DNA of 64,000 nt, from NCBI GenBank assembly GCA_900169975.1, contig LT827121.1, forward strand, positions 124,001-188,000, in the 5' to 3' direction. How positions within the stretch are numbered: the stretch's first letter is position 1; each line of letters starts with the position of its first letter. The notes beneath the pieces were generated by a model. The model made no database searches. It was not told the origin of the DNA and was given only the letters and a program-made list of their open reading frames with translations. The DNA comes from Pseudoflavonifractor sp. Marseille-P3106 (GTDB taxonomy: Bacteria; Bacillota; Clostridia; Oscillospirales; Oscillospiraceae). The position numbers and the translations under genes were made by a program. Positions 3,147 to 64,000 of the stretch are shown one piece after another.

Positions 3147-4331
3147 TTAAGAATGGCTCTGGAGGTATCGCACAGCGCAGTGGGCATACAGAGCGGCACC
3201 GGTGGGGAGGACGTCCTCTTCCACCACCATGCCGGGGTTGTGCATCCCGCAGAGATGCCCGCCCGCCGCGCTGCCCGCGCCCAGCTGAAAGAACACGGAG
3301 GGGACTTTCTGCGCCACTATGGTGAAGTCCTCGCTGCCCGACATACGGTCGCTCTCGATCACGGCTTCTCCGCCCAGAAGCTCCCGGCAGTAGCCGCTCA
3401 GGTCCCTGCACAGCGCCGGGTCGTTGTAGAGAGAGGGCATGCCGTATACAAATTCCACCTCGGCCCGGCCCCGGAAGGTGGCCGCCGTTGCCCGGCTGAT
3501 CTCCGCCACCCGCTGCTTGAGAAAGGCCCGCCCCTCCACCGAGTCGGCCCGGATGGAGGCCTCCAGCACACAGCTTCCCGCGTTGGTGTTGCAGCTGGTG
3601 CCGCCCCGGATCATCCCCACCAGCACGACGGCCTGCTGTTCGCAGGGGATCTCCCGGGCCGGGATGGCCTGGAGCGCGATAATTATGTGGGCCGCGATAT
3701 TGATGGCGTCCACACCGGCGCATGGGGTGCTGCCGTGGGCGTCTTTTCCGGTGATCGTGATCCGGACTGCGTCGCCTGAGAAGGAGGCACAGCCGGGTTT
3801 ATAGGTAATGGTTCCGGGTTCGCTGCAGCCCTCGACCCCCACTGCCACATGAAGCCCCATAGCGGCGTCTGCGGCGGGGTGTTCCAGAATGCCATTGGCC
3901 AGCATATCCCGGGCCCCGGCCAGCAGCTCCTCCGCCGGCTGGAACATCAGCTTGACCCGGCCCGCCAGCTCGGATTCGTGTTCCTTCAGCAGCCGGGCGG
4001 CCCCCAGCAGCATGGCGGTGTGGCAGTCGTGGCCGCAGGAGTGGCAGTTCCCGTTGCCCGCGGCGAAGGGGAGCCCGGTCTGCTCCGCCATGGGCAGCGC
4101 GTCCATGTCGGCCCGGAGCAGGATGGTCTTGCCCGCCCCGCTTCCGATGAGACAGGATACCCCCGCCCTTCCCACCCGCTGAGGCTCCAGACCGCAGGCG
4201 CGCAGCCGCGCCTCTACAAAAGCAACGGTTTGGGGCAGGTCGAAGCCTGTTTCCGCAAAGCTGTGGACGGTACGCCGGTCGGCGATGATCTGATCTTTGA
4301 TGGCCAGAGCGGCCGATTGATAATTCGTCAT
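3147..4331 (-). CDS. M20-family amidohydrolase / N-acyl-amino-acid deacylase-like peptidase
   Basis: This is a cytoplasmic metal-dependent amidohydrolase of the M20D type, 394 residues, of the group that removes acyl groups from amino acids or cleaves small amide conjugates. The metal site is visible as CHSCGHDCH (residues 96-104), with the catalytic QPAEE at 131-135 and the RADMDALP motif near 73-80. The ATG at 4331 is preferred; an in-frame TTG at 4352 has no ribosome binding site. It follows a membrane transporter in the same T-box-controlled operon, suggesting that the transporter imports its substrate. The apparent Trp-type T-box hints at a tryptophan-related substrate, but this is inference. 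Confidence 0.85.
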   Translation of the reverse strand: MTNYQSAALAIKDQIIADRRTVHSFAETGFDLPQTVAFVEARLRACGLEPQRVGRAGVSCLIGSGAGKTILLRADMDALPMAEQTGLPFAAGNGNCHSCGHDCHTAMLLGAARLLKEHESELAGRVKLMFQPAEELLAGARDMLANGILEHPAADAAMGLHVAVGVEGCSEPGTITYKPGCASFSGDAVRITITGKDAHGSTPCAGVDAINIAAHIIIALQAIPAREIPCEQQAVVLVGMIRGGTSCNTNAGSCVLEASIRADSVEGRAFLKQRVAEISRATAATFRGRAEVEFVYGMPSLYNDPALCRDLSGYCRELLGGEAVIESDRMSGSEDFTIVAQKVPSVFFQLGAGSAAGGHLCGMHNPGMVVEEDVLPTGAALYAHCAVRYLQSHS

Positions 4332-41027: not shown

Positions 41028-41373
41028 TGGTGGAGGCGGGGGGAGTCGAACCCCCGTCCGAAAACGCTTCAACGGGAACTTCTCCGGGCGCAGACAGTCA
41101 TTTACATTCCCTTACCCAAGCGTGGGCTGACACACTCAGGGGCTTGGTAGCTTCATGATGCATGGTGCGCTCAAAGCTTTGCGCACGCACGTTCGCCACT
41201 CAACGACGCCCCATCCCGGATCGTGGCCCCTCCGGGTGGGACGGTCACGGCTTAAGCCGCGACAAGCTCAACGTTATTGTTGGCGTTTAAATGTTTTTGC
41301 CCATTTTAAGGATGTTAGGCGCATCCGCCCGCTATTCCCGCCTCTACGTCCCCGTCGAAACCAGTACGCCCCC
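41028..41373 (-). ncRNA. ssrA: Transfer-messenger RNA (tmRNA)
   Basis: tmRNA rescues stalled ribosomes and tags the incomplete protein. The 5' end GGGGGCG pairs with the 3' CGCCTCC just before ACCA, and the T arm GGGGGTTCGACTCCCCC precedes the CCA end at 41028. The tag frame runs from 41284 to the TAA at 41252-41254 and reads ANNNVELVAA (10 residues), ending in the expected hydrophobic Ala-Ala. Its partner gene smpB is about 900 bases away on the same strand. Confidence 0.97.
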
Positions 41374-59893: not shown

Positions 59894-61408
59894 ATGGAAC
59901 GTCCCCGTCTCCCTTTGGGTGACTATTATCAGCTCCTGCTGAAAAACGGACTGCTGGCCGATGCCTCGCCTCTGGCCGCAGACCTTACCAGAACGGTGAC
60001 CGCCGTCACCTGCGACTCCCGCAGCGCCGTGCCTGGGAGCATTTTCGTCTGCAAAGGGGCTTCCTTTAAAGCGGAGTATCTGGCCGAGGCCGTCCGCCGG
60101 GGGGCCTTTGCCTACGTCAGCGAGACGCCCTATGAGGCGCCCGCCCCCTGTCTCCGGGTCACCGACATCCGGTTGGCCATGGGCCTGCTGGCCGACCGGG
60201 CCTGGGGCCACCCCTCCGGGGCGCTGAAGGCCGTGGGGATCACCGGCACCAAGGGAAAGACCACCACCGCCTACTTTTTGAAGTCCATTCTGGACGCGTG
60301 GCGGGAGGCGCAGGGGCTGCATCCCGTGGGGCTTCTGTCCACCATCGTCACCGACGACGGGGCCCAGCGCCGCCCGGCGGTGCTCACCACACCCGAGCCG
60401 CTGGACCTCCAGCGGCACCTGTGGAACGCCGTGAACGCCGGGTGCGGCTACGTGGTCATGGAGGAGTCCAGCCAGGCGCTGAAGTATGGGCGGGTCATCG
60501 GCGTGGATCTGGCTGCCGCCGTGTTTCTGAATATCGGGGAGGATCACATCAGCCCCCGGGAGCACCCCACGTTTCAGGACTATTTTGCCTCCAAGCTGAA
60601 GATTTTCAACCAGGCAGAGGCCGCCGTGGTGAATCTGGACAGCGACCGCTCCGAGGAGGTGCTGGCTGCCGCGGCCCGGTGCGGGCGGGTGGTCACCTAC
60701 TCCATGCGGGATCCCGCCGCCGATCTCTTTGGCCGGGATCTGGCCCGAACGGAGGAGGGCCTTGCCTTCGCGGTGGGCTATGGGGAGGCGCCACTGCGCT
60801 GTGCCATCCCCATGACCGGAGACTTCAATGTCTCCAATGCTCTGGCGGCGCTGGCGGTGTGCCGGGTACTGGACGTGCCCGCGGACGCCGTTCAGGCCGG
60901 ACTGGCCCGGGGCCGGGTGCCCGGGCGGATGGAGACCTATTCCGCCGGGGGCCGGACCGTCATTGTGGACTACGCCCACAACGGCATGAGCCTGTCGGCC
61001 CTGCTGCGCTCCGTGCACAGCGACTACCCCGGCGCGCCGGTTACGGTGGTGTTCGGCTGCACCGGCGGCAAGGGGCTGGACCGCCGGGCCGGCATGGGAG
61101 CCGCCGCGGGAGAATTTGCCGACCGCATCCTCCTTACCGAGGATGACCCCGGACCCGAGGAGGTGGAGGCCATCTGCGCTGAGATCGCGGAGGCCGCCGC
61201 CCCCTTCGGTAAGATTTGCACCGTCATCCCGGACCGGGAGGAGGCGGTCCGCACCGCCATTTTGGAGACCGCCGCCCCGGGGGTCGTGGTCCTGGCGGGC
61301 AAGGGCAGCGAAGGACAGCAGAAGCGGAAGAACGGCCCGGAGCCCTGTGTCCCGGACGGCCTGCTGGCCCGGAAGTATCTGGGGCTTCCTCTGGACGGCG
61401 GAAGATGA
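59894..61408 (+). CDS. murE: UDP-N-acetylmuramyl tripeptide synthetase (MurE family)
   Basis: MurE adds the third amino acid to the peptidoglycan precursor. The 504-residue protein shows the ATP-binding ITGTKGKTTTAYFLKSIL, EESSQALKYGRVIGVDLAAA, AIPMTGDFNVSNALAALAVC, DYAHNGMSLSALL and the C-terminal VVLAGKGSEGQQKR. At the position of the DNPR motif, whose Arg recognises meso-diaminopimelate, it reads EDDPGPEE. It therefore probably adds another diamino acid such as L-Lys, consistent with the D-Asp ligase nearby, though I cannot prove the residue used. Confidence 0.88.
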   Translation: MERPRLPLGDYYQLLLKNGLLADASPLAADLTRTVTAVTCDSRSAVPGSIFVCKGASFKAEYLAEAVRRGAFAYVSETPYEAPAPCLRVTDIRLAMGLLADRAWGHPSGALKAVGITGTKGKTTTAYFLKSILDAWREAQGLHPVGLLSTIVTDDGAQRRPAVLTTPEPLDLQRHLWNAVNAGCGYVVMEESSQALKYGRVIGVDLAAAVFLNIGEDHISPREHPTFQDYFASKLKIFNQAEAAVVNLDSDRSEEVLAAAARCGRVVTYSMRDPAADLFGRDLARTEEGLAFAVGYGEAPLRCAIPMTGDFNVSNALAALAVCRVLDVPADAVQAGLARGRVPGRMETYSAGGRTVIVDYAHNGMSLSALLRSVHSDYPGAPVTVVFGCTGGKGLDRRAGMGAAAGEFADRILLTEDDPGPEEVEAICAEIAEAAAPFGKICTVIPDREEAVRTAILETAAPGVVVLAGKGSEGQQKRKNGPEPCVPDGLLARKYLGLPLDGGR

Positions 61409-61472
61409 CAGACGAAAACGCGGTCCCGGGGGCAGGTGCTGTCCTGCTCCCGGGGCCGCGCGGAAAGTGGTT

Positions 61473-62105
61473 TTATCCCAGCCTCTCCAGCAGAGCGGGG
61501 AGTTGGGAGAATGCGGAGATGGAAGGAACTTCCGGCGGCACCGTGCCGAAGCCGTAGGCCGCGTGGATGAAGGCCACTCCGGCCTCCCGGGCAGAGTGCC
61601 AGTCCAACTCGGTGTCCCCCACATAGACCGGTTTTTTCAGCCCATAGCGGGCCGCCGTCAGCGCGATATTTTGGCTTTTGGGCTTCCCGGTCCGGCCGGC
61701 GCACTCAAAGCCCTGAAAATAGCGCCCCAGCCCGGTCCCCTGAAAAAACGCCTGGATGTAGCCGTCCTGGCAGTTGCTCACCACGAGCAGCGGGCTGCGC
61801 CGGGAGAGGAGGGAGAGGGTCTCCTCCACCTCCGGATAGACCGCGGCGCCGTGCTCCGCCAGATATTCATTTTCCACCGCACAGCACTCTTCGATGATTT
61901 CCAGCTGCCTCTGTCTGTTCAATCCCGGAAGTCTGCGCGCGGCGATGTCCGCAATGCGCAGCCCCATACAGGAGCGGACTTCGTCCACTGTGAGGGGAGG
62001 ACGCTCCACCTGATTGCGCGCCAGAGCAAGATTCCAGGAGATGGTGATTTCCGGGACTGCATCCCAGAGCGTACCGTCCAGATCGAACAAGATACCGTCA
62101 AACAT
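61473..62105 (-). CDS. HAD-superfamily hydrolase, phosphoglycolate phosphatase-like
   Basis: This 210-residue cytosolic phosphatase has the HAD motifs: nucleophile DLDGTLWD (residues 8-15), motif II with LLVVSNCQDGY, the Lys in the TGKPKSQNIALTAARYGLKK region and the acidic VYVGDTELDWHSAREAGVAF. A small helical cap follows motif I. The substrate could be phosphoglycolate or another small phosphoester. It is convergent with the MurE-type gene. Confidence 0.9.
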   Translation of the reverse strand: MFDGILFDLDGTLWDAVPEITISWNLALARNQVERPPLTVDEVRSCMGLRIADIAARRLPGLNRQRQLEIIEECCAVENEYLAEHGAAVYPEVEETLSLLSRRSPLLVVSNCQDGYIQAFFQGTGLGRYFQGFECAGRTGKPKSQNIALTAARYGLKKPVYVGDTELDWHSAREAGVAFIHAAYGFGTVPPEVPSISAFSQLPALLERLG

Positions 62106-62229
62106 GGGTAAACTCCTTTAAATGTCGATTTAAGCCATTATAAAACGAAAGCCGCAAGTTGTAAATGCCCGGCCGCCCTGGTTTGAGCAGGGACGTAATT
62201 TGGGGCGGTGGCGGAGGGAGAGAAATATT

Positions 62230-62406
62230 TTGCAGGTTTACTTCTGGTTTTTCATTGCGCTGGGCCTTTTGATTTTCCTCTTCTCTCAGGAGATCGACCG
62301 TGCGGCCCGAAAAAATCAGAGAACGCCCCGGGCGCGTCTGGTGGCGGCCATCCTTCTGGCGGCCGGATTGATTGGACTGATCGTTACCGCCTGTTTCCCC
62401 AGTTGA
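62230..62406 (+). CDS. Small two-helix membrane protein
   Basis: This short gene encodes 58 residues from a TTG (62230): LQVYFWFFIALGLLIFLFSQ (helix 1), a basic linker EIDRAARKNQRTPRARL and VAAILLAAGLIGLIVTACF (helix 2). GGAGGGAGAG lies about ten bases upstream. It has no recognisable family. It sits alone between the HAD gene and the tRNA array. Confidence 0.55.
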   Translation: MQVYFWFFIALGLLIFLFSQEIDRAARKNQRTPRARLVAAILLAAGLIGLIVTACFPS

Positions 62407-62517
62407 CAGAACAGCATACTTGGGCTAAAATAAAAAAGCTCGGCACCCGGGGCTTAAGCCGCATATAAGGATAGCTCTACCGTTTTTTGGAACATTTGAA
62501 GGACCCAAATTGAATAC

Positions 62518-62611
62518 GTCTCCGTAGCTCAGTTGGATAGTAGCGTTCGCCTCCTAAGCGGCAGATTGTTCGATTCCTTCGAGCAATGAAAATTGCATAA
62601 ATCTTAAAAAT
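62518..62611 (+). pseudogene. Degenerate tRNA-Arg copy A
   Basis: The segment begins GTCTCCGTAGCTCAGTTGGA and keeps the D arm and the anticodon loop CTCCTAA, but carries an extra base in the D-loop region and a T arm that no longer pairs. It is the first of three ~93-bp units before the intact tRNA. It cannot fold as a tRNA. Confidence 0.85.
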
Positions 62612-62704
62612 GTCTCAGTAGCTCAGTTGGATAGAGCACACGCCTCCTAAAAATCGAATCGTTCGAATCCTGGAGCCCTGTAAAATTGAATATTTTCTGT
62701 ATAA
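62612..62704 (+). pseudogene. Degenerate tRNA-Arg copy B
   Basis: The 93-bp unit keeps the first ~45 tRNA bases up to CGCCTCCTAA. It then switches to an unrelated AT-rich tail (AAAATCGAATCGTTCGAATC and onward) identical to that of copy C. The 5' acceptor (GTCTCAG) no longer matches any 3' strand. Confidence 0.88.
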
Positions 62705-62797
62705 GCCCCCGTAGCTCAGTTGGATAGAGCGGTCGCCTCCTAAAAATCGAATCGTTCGAATCCTGGAGCCCTGTAAAATTGAATATTTTCTGTATAA
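62705..62797 (+). pseudogene. Degenerate tRNA-Arg copy C
   Basis: Another 93-bp unit. Its first 47 bases, from GCCCCCG through the anticodon, are identical to those of the functional tRNA; the rest is the same tail as in copy B. Only the 5' half of the tRNA is intact. Confidence 0.9.
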
Positions 62798-62874
62798 GCC
62801 CCCGTAGCTCAGTTGGATAGAGCGGTCGCCTCCTAAGCGACAGGCCACTGGTTCGAACCCAGCCGGGGGTGCCA
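62798..62874 (+). tRNA. tRNA-Arg (anticodon CCT)
   Basis: This 77-base gene starts GCCCCCG and ends GTGCCA. D arm GCTC/GAGC, anticodon stem GTCGC/GCGAC with loop CTCCTAA (anticodon CCT, reads AGG), T loop TTCGAAC and the acceptor partner CGGGGGT are all in place, with CCA encoded. It is the last and only intact member of a tandem array and lies next to an integrase gene, so it is a probable attachment site. Confidence 0.95.
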
Positions 62875-62880
62875 AAAATG

Positions 62881-62921
62881 ACCGTTGTAAGCCATTTTTT
62901 GATGGTTTACAGCGGTTTTTT
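62881..62921 (+). terminator. Terminator after tRNA-Arg
   Basis: ACCGTTGTAAGCCAT pairs with ATGGTTTACAGCGGT across TTTTTTG and is followed by six Ts. It ends the tRNA transcript six bases after CCA. Confidence 0.85.
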
Positions 62922-62989
62922 GTTATCGTTTTTCCAGAGCATTCTTGCTGCTCCACCGGAACGATTTTATACATTTTCCGCTGTATGCC

Positions 62990-63049
62990 TGCTAATTGGC
63001 TTCGAACTATTTTTCCGGCCTTGCTAATAAAAAACGCCGATTTGCTAAT
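62990..63049. repeat. Three direct TGCTAAT repeats near the integrase gene
   Basis: TGCTAAT occurs at 62990-62996, 63022-63028 and 63043-63049, all in the same orientation, between the tRNA and the end of the integrase gene. Short spaced repeats in this position resemble arm-type integrase binding sites of an attachment site. Confidence 0.5.
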
Positions 63050-63063
63050 ACGATTTTCCCGCC

Positions 63064-64000
63064 CTATTTTTCGGATGGGGCCGACGCCAGCAATGCAGCC
63101 AGTGTGTTGGCCAGTTCCGGCGACTTGCGAAGCTGTTCCACCAGGGTCTCCAAATCCATTGTGGCGGGCGCCGGTTCCTTTGGTTCCTCCGGGGGACGAA
63201 CCGAACGCAGGTCGGGATTGGCATAGAAGGCACTCTCAAACTTCTGGGCGTTGATCTTGCGGTCCTCGTCCAGAATGTGGGCATACACGCTGGTGATCAT
63301 GTCGATCTGGGCATGTCCAGTATCGCCCTGGGTGGCCTTCAGGTCGCCGTGGTTCAGCTTTAACTTATAGGTGGTGCTGGAATGGCGCAGGGAGTGAAAG
63401 ACCACTTTGGGAAGCCCTGCTTTCTCCCGCAGCTTCTCAAACGACTTCAGGATGATACGGTCCTCACAGGGGCGGCCATTGGCCAGCGCCACCACCAGGT
63501 CGTAGTCCTGATACTCATCACGGAGCAGCGCCCGCAGCTCGTCTTGCGCGGATTTCCATTCCCGCAGGATGTAAGCCAGGGTCTTGGGCAGCCACACCTT
63601 GCGGATGCTGGAATCGGTCTTGGGCTTCTTCAAAATGATCCTGGTGCTGGTATTGGGAAACAGAGGCGTGAACACATGATAGATGTCCTTTTGCCCCAGC
63701 ATCTCAATGGCTCGCTTGGAGGCCCGTGCCAGCTCCTTGTCGATGTAGACATAGGCGTTGTCATCGGCAATATCTTCATCGGAGATATGGACATTGCTCC
63801 AGGTCAGCCCCAGAATCTCCCCCATGCGCAGCGAACAGGCAAAGGCCAGGTTCATTGCTACATAGAGCTTGCTGTCCGTACACTGATCCAGGGCGGTGCG
63901 GATCATATCGGCGGTCCAGATGTCCCGCTTCTTGTATTCCACTTTGGGCAGTACCACATTGTCAAAGGGGTTCTTGGCAACCAGCTCCCACCGGACCGCC
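63064..64000 (-). CDS. int: Tyrosine-type integrase/recombinase (5' end beyond the window)
   Basis: The visible 312 codons run off the right edge; reading on from the internal start, the frame continues upstream as AVRWELVAKNPFDNVVLPKV. The catalytic domain shows the Arg region SLRMGEILGLTW, the HSLRHSS box (His-x-x-Arg), GDTGHAQIDMITSVYAHILD with the nucleophilic Tyr. A Pro/Glu-rich tail follows. Placed 190 bases from an intact tRNA-Arg and a TGCTAAT repeat set, it probably belongs to an integrative element that extends to the right. Confidence 0.93.
   Translation of the reverse strand, partial: AVRWELVAKNPFDNVVLPKVEYKKRDIWTADMIRTALDQCTDSKLYVAMNLAFACSLRMGEILGLTWSNVHISDEDIADDNAYVYIDKELARASKRAIEMLGQKDIYHVFTPLFPNTSTRIILKKPKTDSSIRKVWLPKTLAYILREWKSAQDELRALLRDEYQDYDLVVALANGRPCEDRIILKSFEKLREKAGLPKVVFHSLRHSSTTYKLKLNHGDLKATQGDTGHAQIDMITSVYAHILDEDRKINAQKFESAFYANPDLRSVRPPEEPKEPAPATMDLETLVEQLRKSPELANTLAALLASAPSEK

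Follow-up and report, generated by a model that had tools for sequence, protein, structure and literature searches.

Half copies of tRNA-Arg(CCT) beside an ICE very probably record nested integrations at the anticodon loop

Here, we explored the surroundings of tRNA-Arg(CCT) in a 64,000-nt stretch of the genome of Pseudoflavonifractor sp. Marseille-P3106 (contig LT827121.1, positions 124,001 to 188,000; hereafter, the window). Four units, A to D, that share the 5′ half of this tRNA lie in a row between a host gene and a tyrosine integrase gene (Table 1), with unit-to-unit steps of 94, 93 and 93; in A, B and C, the tRNA sequence breaks off at the anticodon loop, CTCCTAA (hereafter, the core), and the sequence that follows each of these cores is referred to as the tail. 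Only D was called as a tRNA by ARAGORN and scored as such by Rfam (59.7 bits); neither program found an RNA in units A to C. The initial annotation had described an array of tRNA-Arg(CCT) units with a period of about 93 bp, in which three units keep the 5′ half through the anticodon loop and the fourth is intact, next to an integrase, and the measured steps, the located cores and the PF00589 domain of the neighbouring ORF bear this out. It had further ascribed to B and C an identical, unrelated tail. The identity is exact, in that a 103-nt run recurs at a lag of 93 (62641-62743 equals 62734-62836), and the B tail together with the C 5′ half is identical to the C tail together with the D 5′ half; the word "unrelated" does not hold, because the A tail and the B/C tail fall into one loose cluster.

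Table 1. Features at the tRNA-Arg(CCT) locus of the window; "scar" denotes the interpretation argued for in the text
Feature	Coordinates	Strand	Basis or remark
HAD-type phosphatase gene, left host neighbour	61473..62105	-	ORF; name from reading, not HMM
Sigma-70-type promoter TTGACA-17-TAAAAT, 11/12, predicted driver of the array and D	62403..62431	+	Consensus match
Presumed scar A, 5′ half left from a previous tRNA-Arg(CCT); CTCCTAA core at 62551-62557	62518..62557	+	3′ half at G000:C11:10660-10704
Tail of the element thought to have split A, left-end arm, A-type cassette	62558..62611	+	Close copies in G121, G645, G646, G069
Presumed scar B, 5′ half of the tRNA probably delivered by the A-type element, core 62644-62650	62612..62650	+	
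Tail of the putative first T1 element, left end	62651..62704	+	Same or near-same tail in G078, G147, G169, G197
Presumed scar C, 5′ half equal to that of D, core 62737-62743	62705..62743	+	Exact 103-nt repeat
Tail of the resident T1 element, left end directly after the C core	62744..62797	+	G078 alignment
Intact tRNA-Arg(CCT) D, element-borne, core 62830-62836 (predicted next target)	62798..62874	+	ARAGORN, Rfam
Intrinsic terminator directly after D, element-borne	62880..62917	+	Predicted
Three TGCTAAT repeats, candidate arm-type integrase sites	62990..63049: 62990, 63022, 63043	+	Role inferred
Tyrosine integrase, 464 aa, runs past the window end to about 64458	63064..64000	-	PF00589 and SAM-like N-terminal domain

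The left flank, 61401-62517, has blastn matches in 7 of the 11 same-genus loci compared. Within it, the stretch between the promoter and unit A (62432-62517) has AAATTGAATA shortly before A, as in cassette tails, and may hide an older, decayed scar. The D-arm of unit A (62535-62550) is longer, with GGATAG[T/C]AGCG, and the same variant recurs in other genera (G305, G265 and G194), so that it looks like a mark of tRNA lineage rather than of decay. Downstream, the predicted terminator is the sole terminator-like site on the + strand within 62120-63060. A search of the window's own genome with CCTCCTAAGCGA returned a single match, D itself. Folding energies (z of -1.1 for D and -0.4 to -1.0 for A to C) are uninformative on the scars, because D itself folds no better than the half units. 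A resemblance to YrlA/Y-RNA was rejected at 19.7 bits in Rfam, against a gathering score of 69. Elsewhere in the window, a tmRNA gene occupies 41028-41373 (-) and encodes the tag ANNNVELVAA.

Alignment of the window with the corresponding locus of another genome, G078, delimits the left end of the resident element: there are 3 mismatches in about 150 nt to the right of the core and many to the left of it. The sequence common to both genomes runs from the core rightwards through the tail, the complete tRNA and the terminator, and thus the tRNA belongs to the element; further matches, in blocks of about 90-95%, extend nearly to the end of the contig that carries the window (C15), and the two integrases are 98.9% identical. 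A tRNA identical to D is present in both G078 and G060. Contig C15 also encodes a relaxase (PF03432), topoisomerase III (TopB), a CD1108-family NlpC/P60 protein and a VirB4 of the CD1110 family, whereas a VirD4 of the CD1115 family and the right end of the element are found on contig C11. By gene content, the element is an ICE, with integrase, relaxase and type IV secretion ATPases all present, the two separate contigs presumably being linked into one element. Three more TGCTAAT repeats are found at the right end (L157 10451, 10504 and 10515), and the repeats near both ends are candidate arm-type sites. A search for the attP pattern of this type of element (T1) gave 0 matches in genome_contigs and, in viral_contigs, one unrelated match that contains neither a tRNA half nor a tail.

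Several other features of the ICE were observed. A pemK RNA motif (RF02913, 45.4 bits) precedes the integrase gene outside the window (L005 4878-4958, -) and is also found in L067, L118 and L120; an RloB-like protein beside an AAA_21 ATPase (L005 11615-13554, -) looks like a defence pair; and the right part of the ICE (L157 1369-6325, -) contains group II intron RNAs and two group II reverse transcriptases.

Arrays of this kind are present in many genera, judging from the matches listed for a family sample of 300 genomes together with the retrieved loci. A search for the exact tandem pattern across 198 genomes of the order found them in 12, which belong to 6 families, and the control gave 0 hits; this is a lower bound, given that the pattern misses many variants. 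For a comparison of cassettes, we used 60 loci, a selection biased towards arrays, 49 of which have at least one scar (78 scars altogether). Under a loose clustering of the tails (72% identity, single linkage), the largest cluster comprises 22 cassettes, spread over 11 genera and 3 families and standing behind 18 different 5′ halves. The B/C cassette of the window itself, identical or a base or two off, recurs behind other 5′ halves (G078, G147 and G169) and, in G197, behind a variant core. A cassette that swaps its left neighbour but keeps its interior is an inserted piece, bounded on the left by the core. In G121, moreover, an intact tRNA has the same acceptor and anticodon-stem 5′ strands as scar B. 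In six genomes (G253, G262, G281, G211, G265 and G215), the assembly breaks within about 300 bases after this tRNA, perhaps because the populations were mixed for an inserted element.

The mobility of the cassettes bears directly on the possibility that the array arose by plain tandem duplication of the tRNA-Arg gene, through slippage or unequal crossing-over, with the 3′ halves decaying afterwards. The near-constant period of 93-94 bp and the exact copy of the B tail with the C 5′ half are what such duplication would produce, and the same cassette is repeated two or more times in tandem in G121, G493 and G645 as well. Duplication does not account, however, for the B/C cassette behind other 5′ halves, for unit lengths that vary with tail type from about 80 to over 500 bp among the 60 loci, or for the matching 3′ halves at the far ends of elements described below. 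We therefore reject it for the array as a whole, for which it is very improbable. For unit C alone, the suggestion of the initial annotation that an attachment remnant was duplicated in tandem might still apply, since the copy is exact, but the same element inserting twice in succession fits equally well.

The integrases follow the tails to a degree: median identity is 79.5% within a tail cluster (16 pairs) as against 32.7% between clusters (104 pairs), the link being loose, with 5 of the 16 same-cluster pairs near 40% and some different-cluster pairs reaching 82%. No relative of the window integrase was detected within 3.2 kb of the tRNA in 11 of 27 loci. Other elements at the same site have RepA_N, ParA and ParB beside the tRNA (tested in G049, and for ParA also in G041), and the arrangement appears similar, by eye, in further loci.

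An element that splits a tRNA gene at the core necessarily displaces the old 3′ half to its own far end. We searched 80 genomes for 3′ halves, obtained at least 2 matches in 25, and examined these 25 together with G079; a second 3′ half in G092, where the tRNA is cut by the contig start, and a third match in G232 (C35) were left out. A displaced 3′ half was found in 22 of the 26 examined genomes, the exceptions being G079, G092, G194 and G259, of which the last has two intact tRNAs. As many as 20 of the 22 displaced halves, including those of G043, G115 and G242, pair at 12/12 positions (acceptor 7/7 and anticodon stem 5/5) with a scar in the same genome, and against these 20 the intact tRNA of the same array pairs worse in 17 cases and ties in 3 (G144, G200 and G211). 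The two misfits are G143, where the half has no partner in the array, and G304, where it pairs with the intact tRNA instead of a scar. In a control covering 19 of the 22 halves, 28 of the 342 comparisons with arrays of other genomes reached 12/12. The initial annotation had proposed to look for the 3′ half of tRNA-Arg at the far end of the element, and in the window's own genome it is there: the half at G000:C11:10660-10704 adjoins the right end of the element and pairs 12/12 with A but only 9-10/12 with B, C and D. The pairing with D, at 10/12, shows that the displaced fragment is not cognate to the intact tRNA. The 120 nt that precede this half are 97% identical to the right ends of G078, G169 and G123, whereas to the right of the core the sequences of all four genomes differ; in the window genome, an acyl-CoA dehydrogenase-like ORF and then electron-transfer flavoprotein ORFs follow the 3′ half (names from reading).

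In classical tRNA integration, the element would carry a 3′ half alone, and the array would be unrelated debris. Displaced 3′ halves at the far end are indeed the usual sign of a tRNA island, as described for Islander (PMC4383910), yet in 17 of the 22 genomes the displaced half fits a scar better than it fits the intact tRNA, and the left boundary of the T1 element, as defined by the alignment with G078, precedes the whole tRNA. This explanation is thus scarcely credible. What had been called decayed copies are tRNA halves that were cut, as attested by the 3′ half that matches A elsewhere in the genome.

Thus, we are confident that the array preserves, in order, a series of nested site-specific integrations at the anticodon loop of tRNA-Arg(CCT), in line with the repeated integration suspected from the outset and now backed by the fit between A and its displaced half. 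The attP of the element would recombine with the 7-bp core, and 7 bp is described as the classical overlap size for strand exchange by an integrase (PMC8371274). The left end of each such element consists of a short tail, a complete tRNA-Arg(CCT) devoid of a recognisable strong promoter, a terminator and, often, the integrase gene. Upon insertion, the old 5′ half would remain beside the host promoter as a scar, the old 3′ half would be carried off to the far end, and the tRNA of the element would be transcribed from the host promoter across the scars. The next element would then enter the newly delivered tRNA, such that scars pile up with the oldest nearest to the promoter. The idea that the tRNA was rebuilt each time can accordingly be dropped: nothing is rebuilt from halves; each element delivers a complete tRNA, which also explains why it is the 5′ half that stays on the promoter side.

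The right-hand side of the loci is less complete than the left. There are three scars and one displaced half in the window genome, and four and one, respectively, in G169; in the former, therefore, the intermediate right ends are missing. Furthermore, the right end joined to the 3′ half of A is T1-type, whereas the tail beside A is A-type, which calls for an additional core-by-core recombination. Given that all cores are alike, two right-side cores can recombine and remove the older element between them; older elements probably were lost in this way, leaving behind the left scars about 90 bp apart, and such recombination would also explain the T1 right end at the 3′ half of A. Active excision of the element is presumed as well. 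Work on ICESt1 accretion reportedly describes stacked elements with common att cores that are lost by core-core recombination; these elements are not known to involve a replacement tRNA or scars on the promoter side.

Alternatively, the scars could be footprints of imprecise exit, with an element leaving via the core in its own tRNA rather than the attL core, so that a tail and a 5′ half remain. The shortage of right-end fragments relative to scars (3:1 and 4:1 in the two genomes above) and the same-genus arrays that lack an integrase relative within about 1.5 kb would be in keeping with such exits. Exit of this kind would, however, fuse the 5′ half of the element to the older 3′ half, and D pairs with its own 3′ half; the 3′ half of A, furthermore, sits elsewhere in the same genome. 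In G121, scar 2 has its 3′ half about 33 kb away, next to which comes the terminator of that older type of element, and this succession, a newer element still trailed by the older-type 3′ half and terminator, is stacking. We consider imprecise exit unlikely as the general source of the arrays, with the proviso that some scars may have arisen when an element left by way of the core in the tRNA that it carried.

One further locus shows a different arrangement. In G259:C23 (L207), an element's right end at position 3368 leads into CTCCTAA, followed by a T4-type tail and then a second intact tRNA-Arg(CCT). The order is attP-like (X-core-tail), and the contig is non-circular as judged by exact end overlap. 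Perhaps a scar core was used as the target, or this is a tandem junction. A PF00589 integrase is encoded about 2 kb before the right end, suggesting that some elements may keep the integrase at the far end.

Within the genus, 11 of the 16 genomes searched listed a CCTCCT-type tRNA-Arg. Upstream 5′ fragments of the same tRNA are present in 8 of these 11 loci, the window included, and absent from L013, L015 and L021. The fragments reach a core in four loci (the window, G003, G005 and G011), and in the four others all of them end in the D-loop. The window integrase had no tblastn match in the ten other loci within about 1.5 kb on each side of the tRNA; hence, there are same-genus genomes that have upstream 5′ fragments and no relative of this integrase near the tRNA. 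One of these is G005, where a displaced 3′ half nonetheless lies 52 kb away, so that the missing nearby relative does not show that the element is absent. A second kind of unit was observed upstream of tRNA-Arg(CCT) in L008, L010, L011, L016, L017 and L018, where the fragment ends with GGATA in the D-loop and is followed, in several cases, by a hairpin (e.g., CTGTCAC..GTGACAGTTAGTGCCGCGAAGCGGC), with two tandem copies in G004 and G010. Given that a similar hairpin is found elsewhere in G005 (C29:9884), it may be a small palindromic repeat.

Of the 58 first units, 41 (34/47 with a scar and 7/11 without) have a sigma-70 match of 11/12 or better in the 150 nt before them, as against 0 of the 78 later units, a comparison that somewhat favours the first units in that most of the later stretches do not reach 150 nt. 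A score of 10 was reached by 1/78 of the shuffled units and by 1/78 of the real later units. T3 tails contain TTGCAG-17-TATAAT, and this perfect TATAAT suggests that some cassettes may own a weak promoter. Most simply, each new tRNA would be served by the host promoter across the scars. Predicted co-transcription with the tRNA, together with the presence of arrays in many genera, could also mean that the half-tRNA units persist because they serve some purpose, either as attachment sites (decoys or spares) or as processed RNA fragments, and the junction in G259:C23, where a right end meets a core, a tail and a complete tRNA, would suit a scar core that acts as a target. Such retention seems improbable to us, considering that ARAGORN and Rfam find no RNA in A to C, that the tails differ widely and that the presence of the scars is explicable without function.

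Taken one step further, nested integration would imply that, across a bacterial order, competing conjugative elements seize one host tRNA promoter by means of promoterless replacement tRNAs and terminators. The tRNA-Arg(CCT) gene would then be mobile-derived and repeatedly replaced, the scars would be chronological, and the elements would be hard to lose, because the tRNA leaves with the element. We lean slightly towards this broader scenario. With nested integration as such, the order of past insertions is stored in a few hundred bases, and the succession of elements can be read without a time series; a host tRNA gene is repeatedly swapped for mobile-element versions. Such islands would presumably be mislocated by methods in which an intact tRNA is matched to its own fragment.

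The nearest known kind of system is the tRNA-dependent lysogeny of actinobacteriophages (PMC10865867), which, as described there, shares with the window a tyrosine integrase and a short core in a host tRNA gene, as well as junctions without a functional tRNA and an element-borne tRNA. In the window, junctions A, B and C are not tRNAs according to ARAGORN and Rfam, the right junction consists of element sequence and a 3′ half, and D, the element-borne tRNA, lies to the right of the left boundary of the element, in sequence common to G078. In actinobacteriophages, the tRNA is described as a separate phage gene, located for one phage downstream of int (Guerrero-Bustamante and Hatfull 2024, PMC10865867). 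By contrast, the tRNA in the window is situated directly at attL, seemingly relies on the host promoter, becomes the next target in turn and is preceded by an array of scars. The carriers differ too, phages in the published account and, by gene content, an ICE in the window, and tRNA-dependent integration would thus extend from phages to ICE, with promoter capture.

Classical tRNA and tmRNA islands, as catalogued by Islander (PMC4383910), resemble the window in the crossover at the anticodon loop and in the displaced fragment that marks the far end. However, Islander, as described, pairs the intact tRNA with its own fragment, whereas the fragment in the window partners a scar, and loci of the window type combine 5′ fragments on the left with 3′ fragments on the right; a 5′ fragment is given for 159 of 3919 Islander islands (PMC4383910). 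A looser parallel is provided by the tandem ssrA islands of Dehalococcoides (PMC3146451), where serial integration at one RNA gene has left many att repeats; these are reported to be 20 bp long, to match the 3′ end of ssrA and to lie within 100 kb on its downstream side. Unlike the elements considered here, these islands involve a serine recombinase and keep ssrA itself, and the part of that account available to us describes no compact 5′-half array. In the literature surveyed, mainly non-subscription and by titles and abstract openings, we recognised no account of whole-tRNA elements that leave arrays of 5′ halves. Relative to tRNA-dependent lysogeny, what is new is the serial targeting of whole-tRNA cassettes that leaves ordered scars, and the new points overall are the whole-tRNA cassette, its spread over families of the order and the displaced 3′ halves that match the scars.
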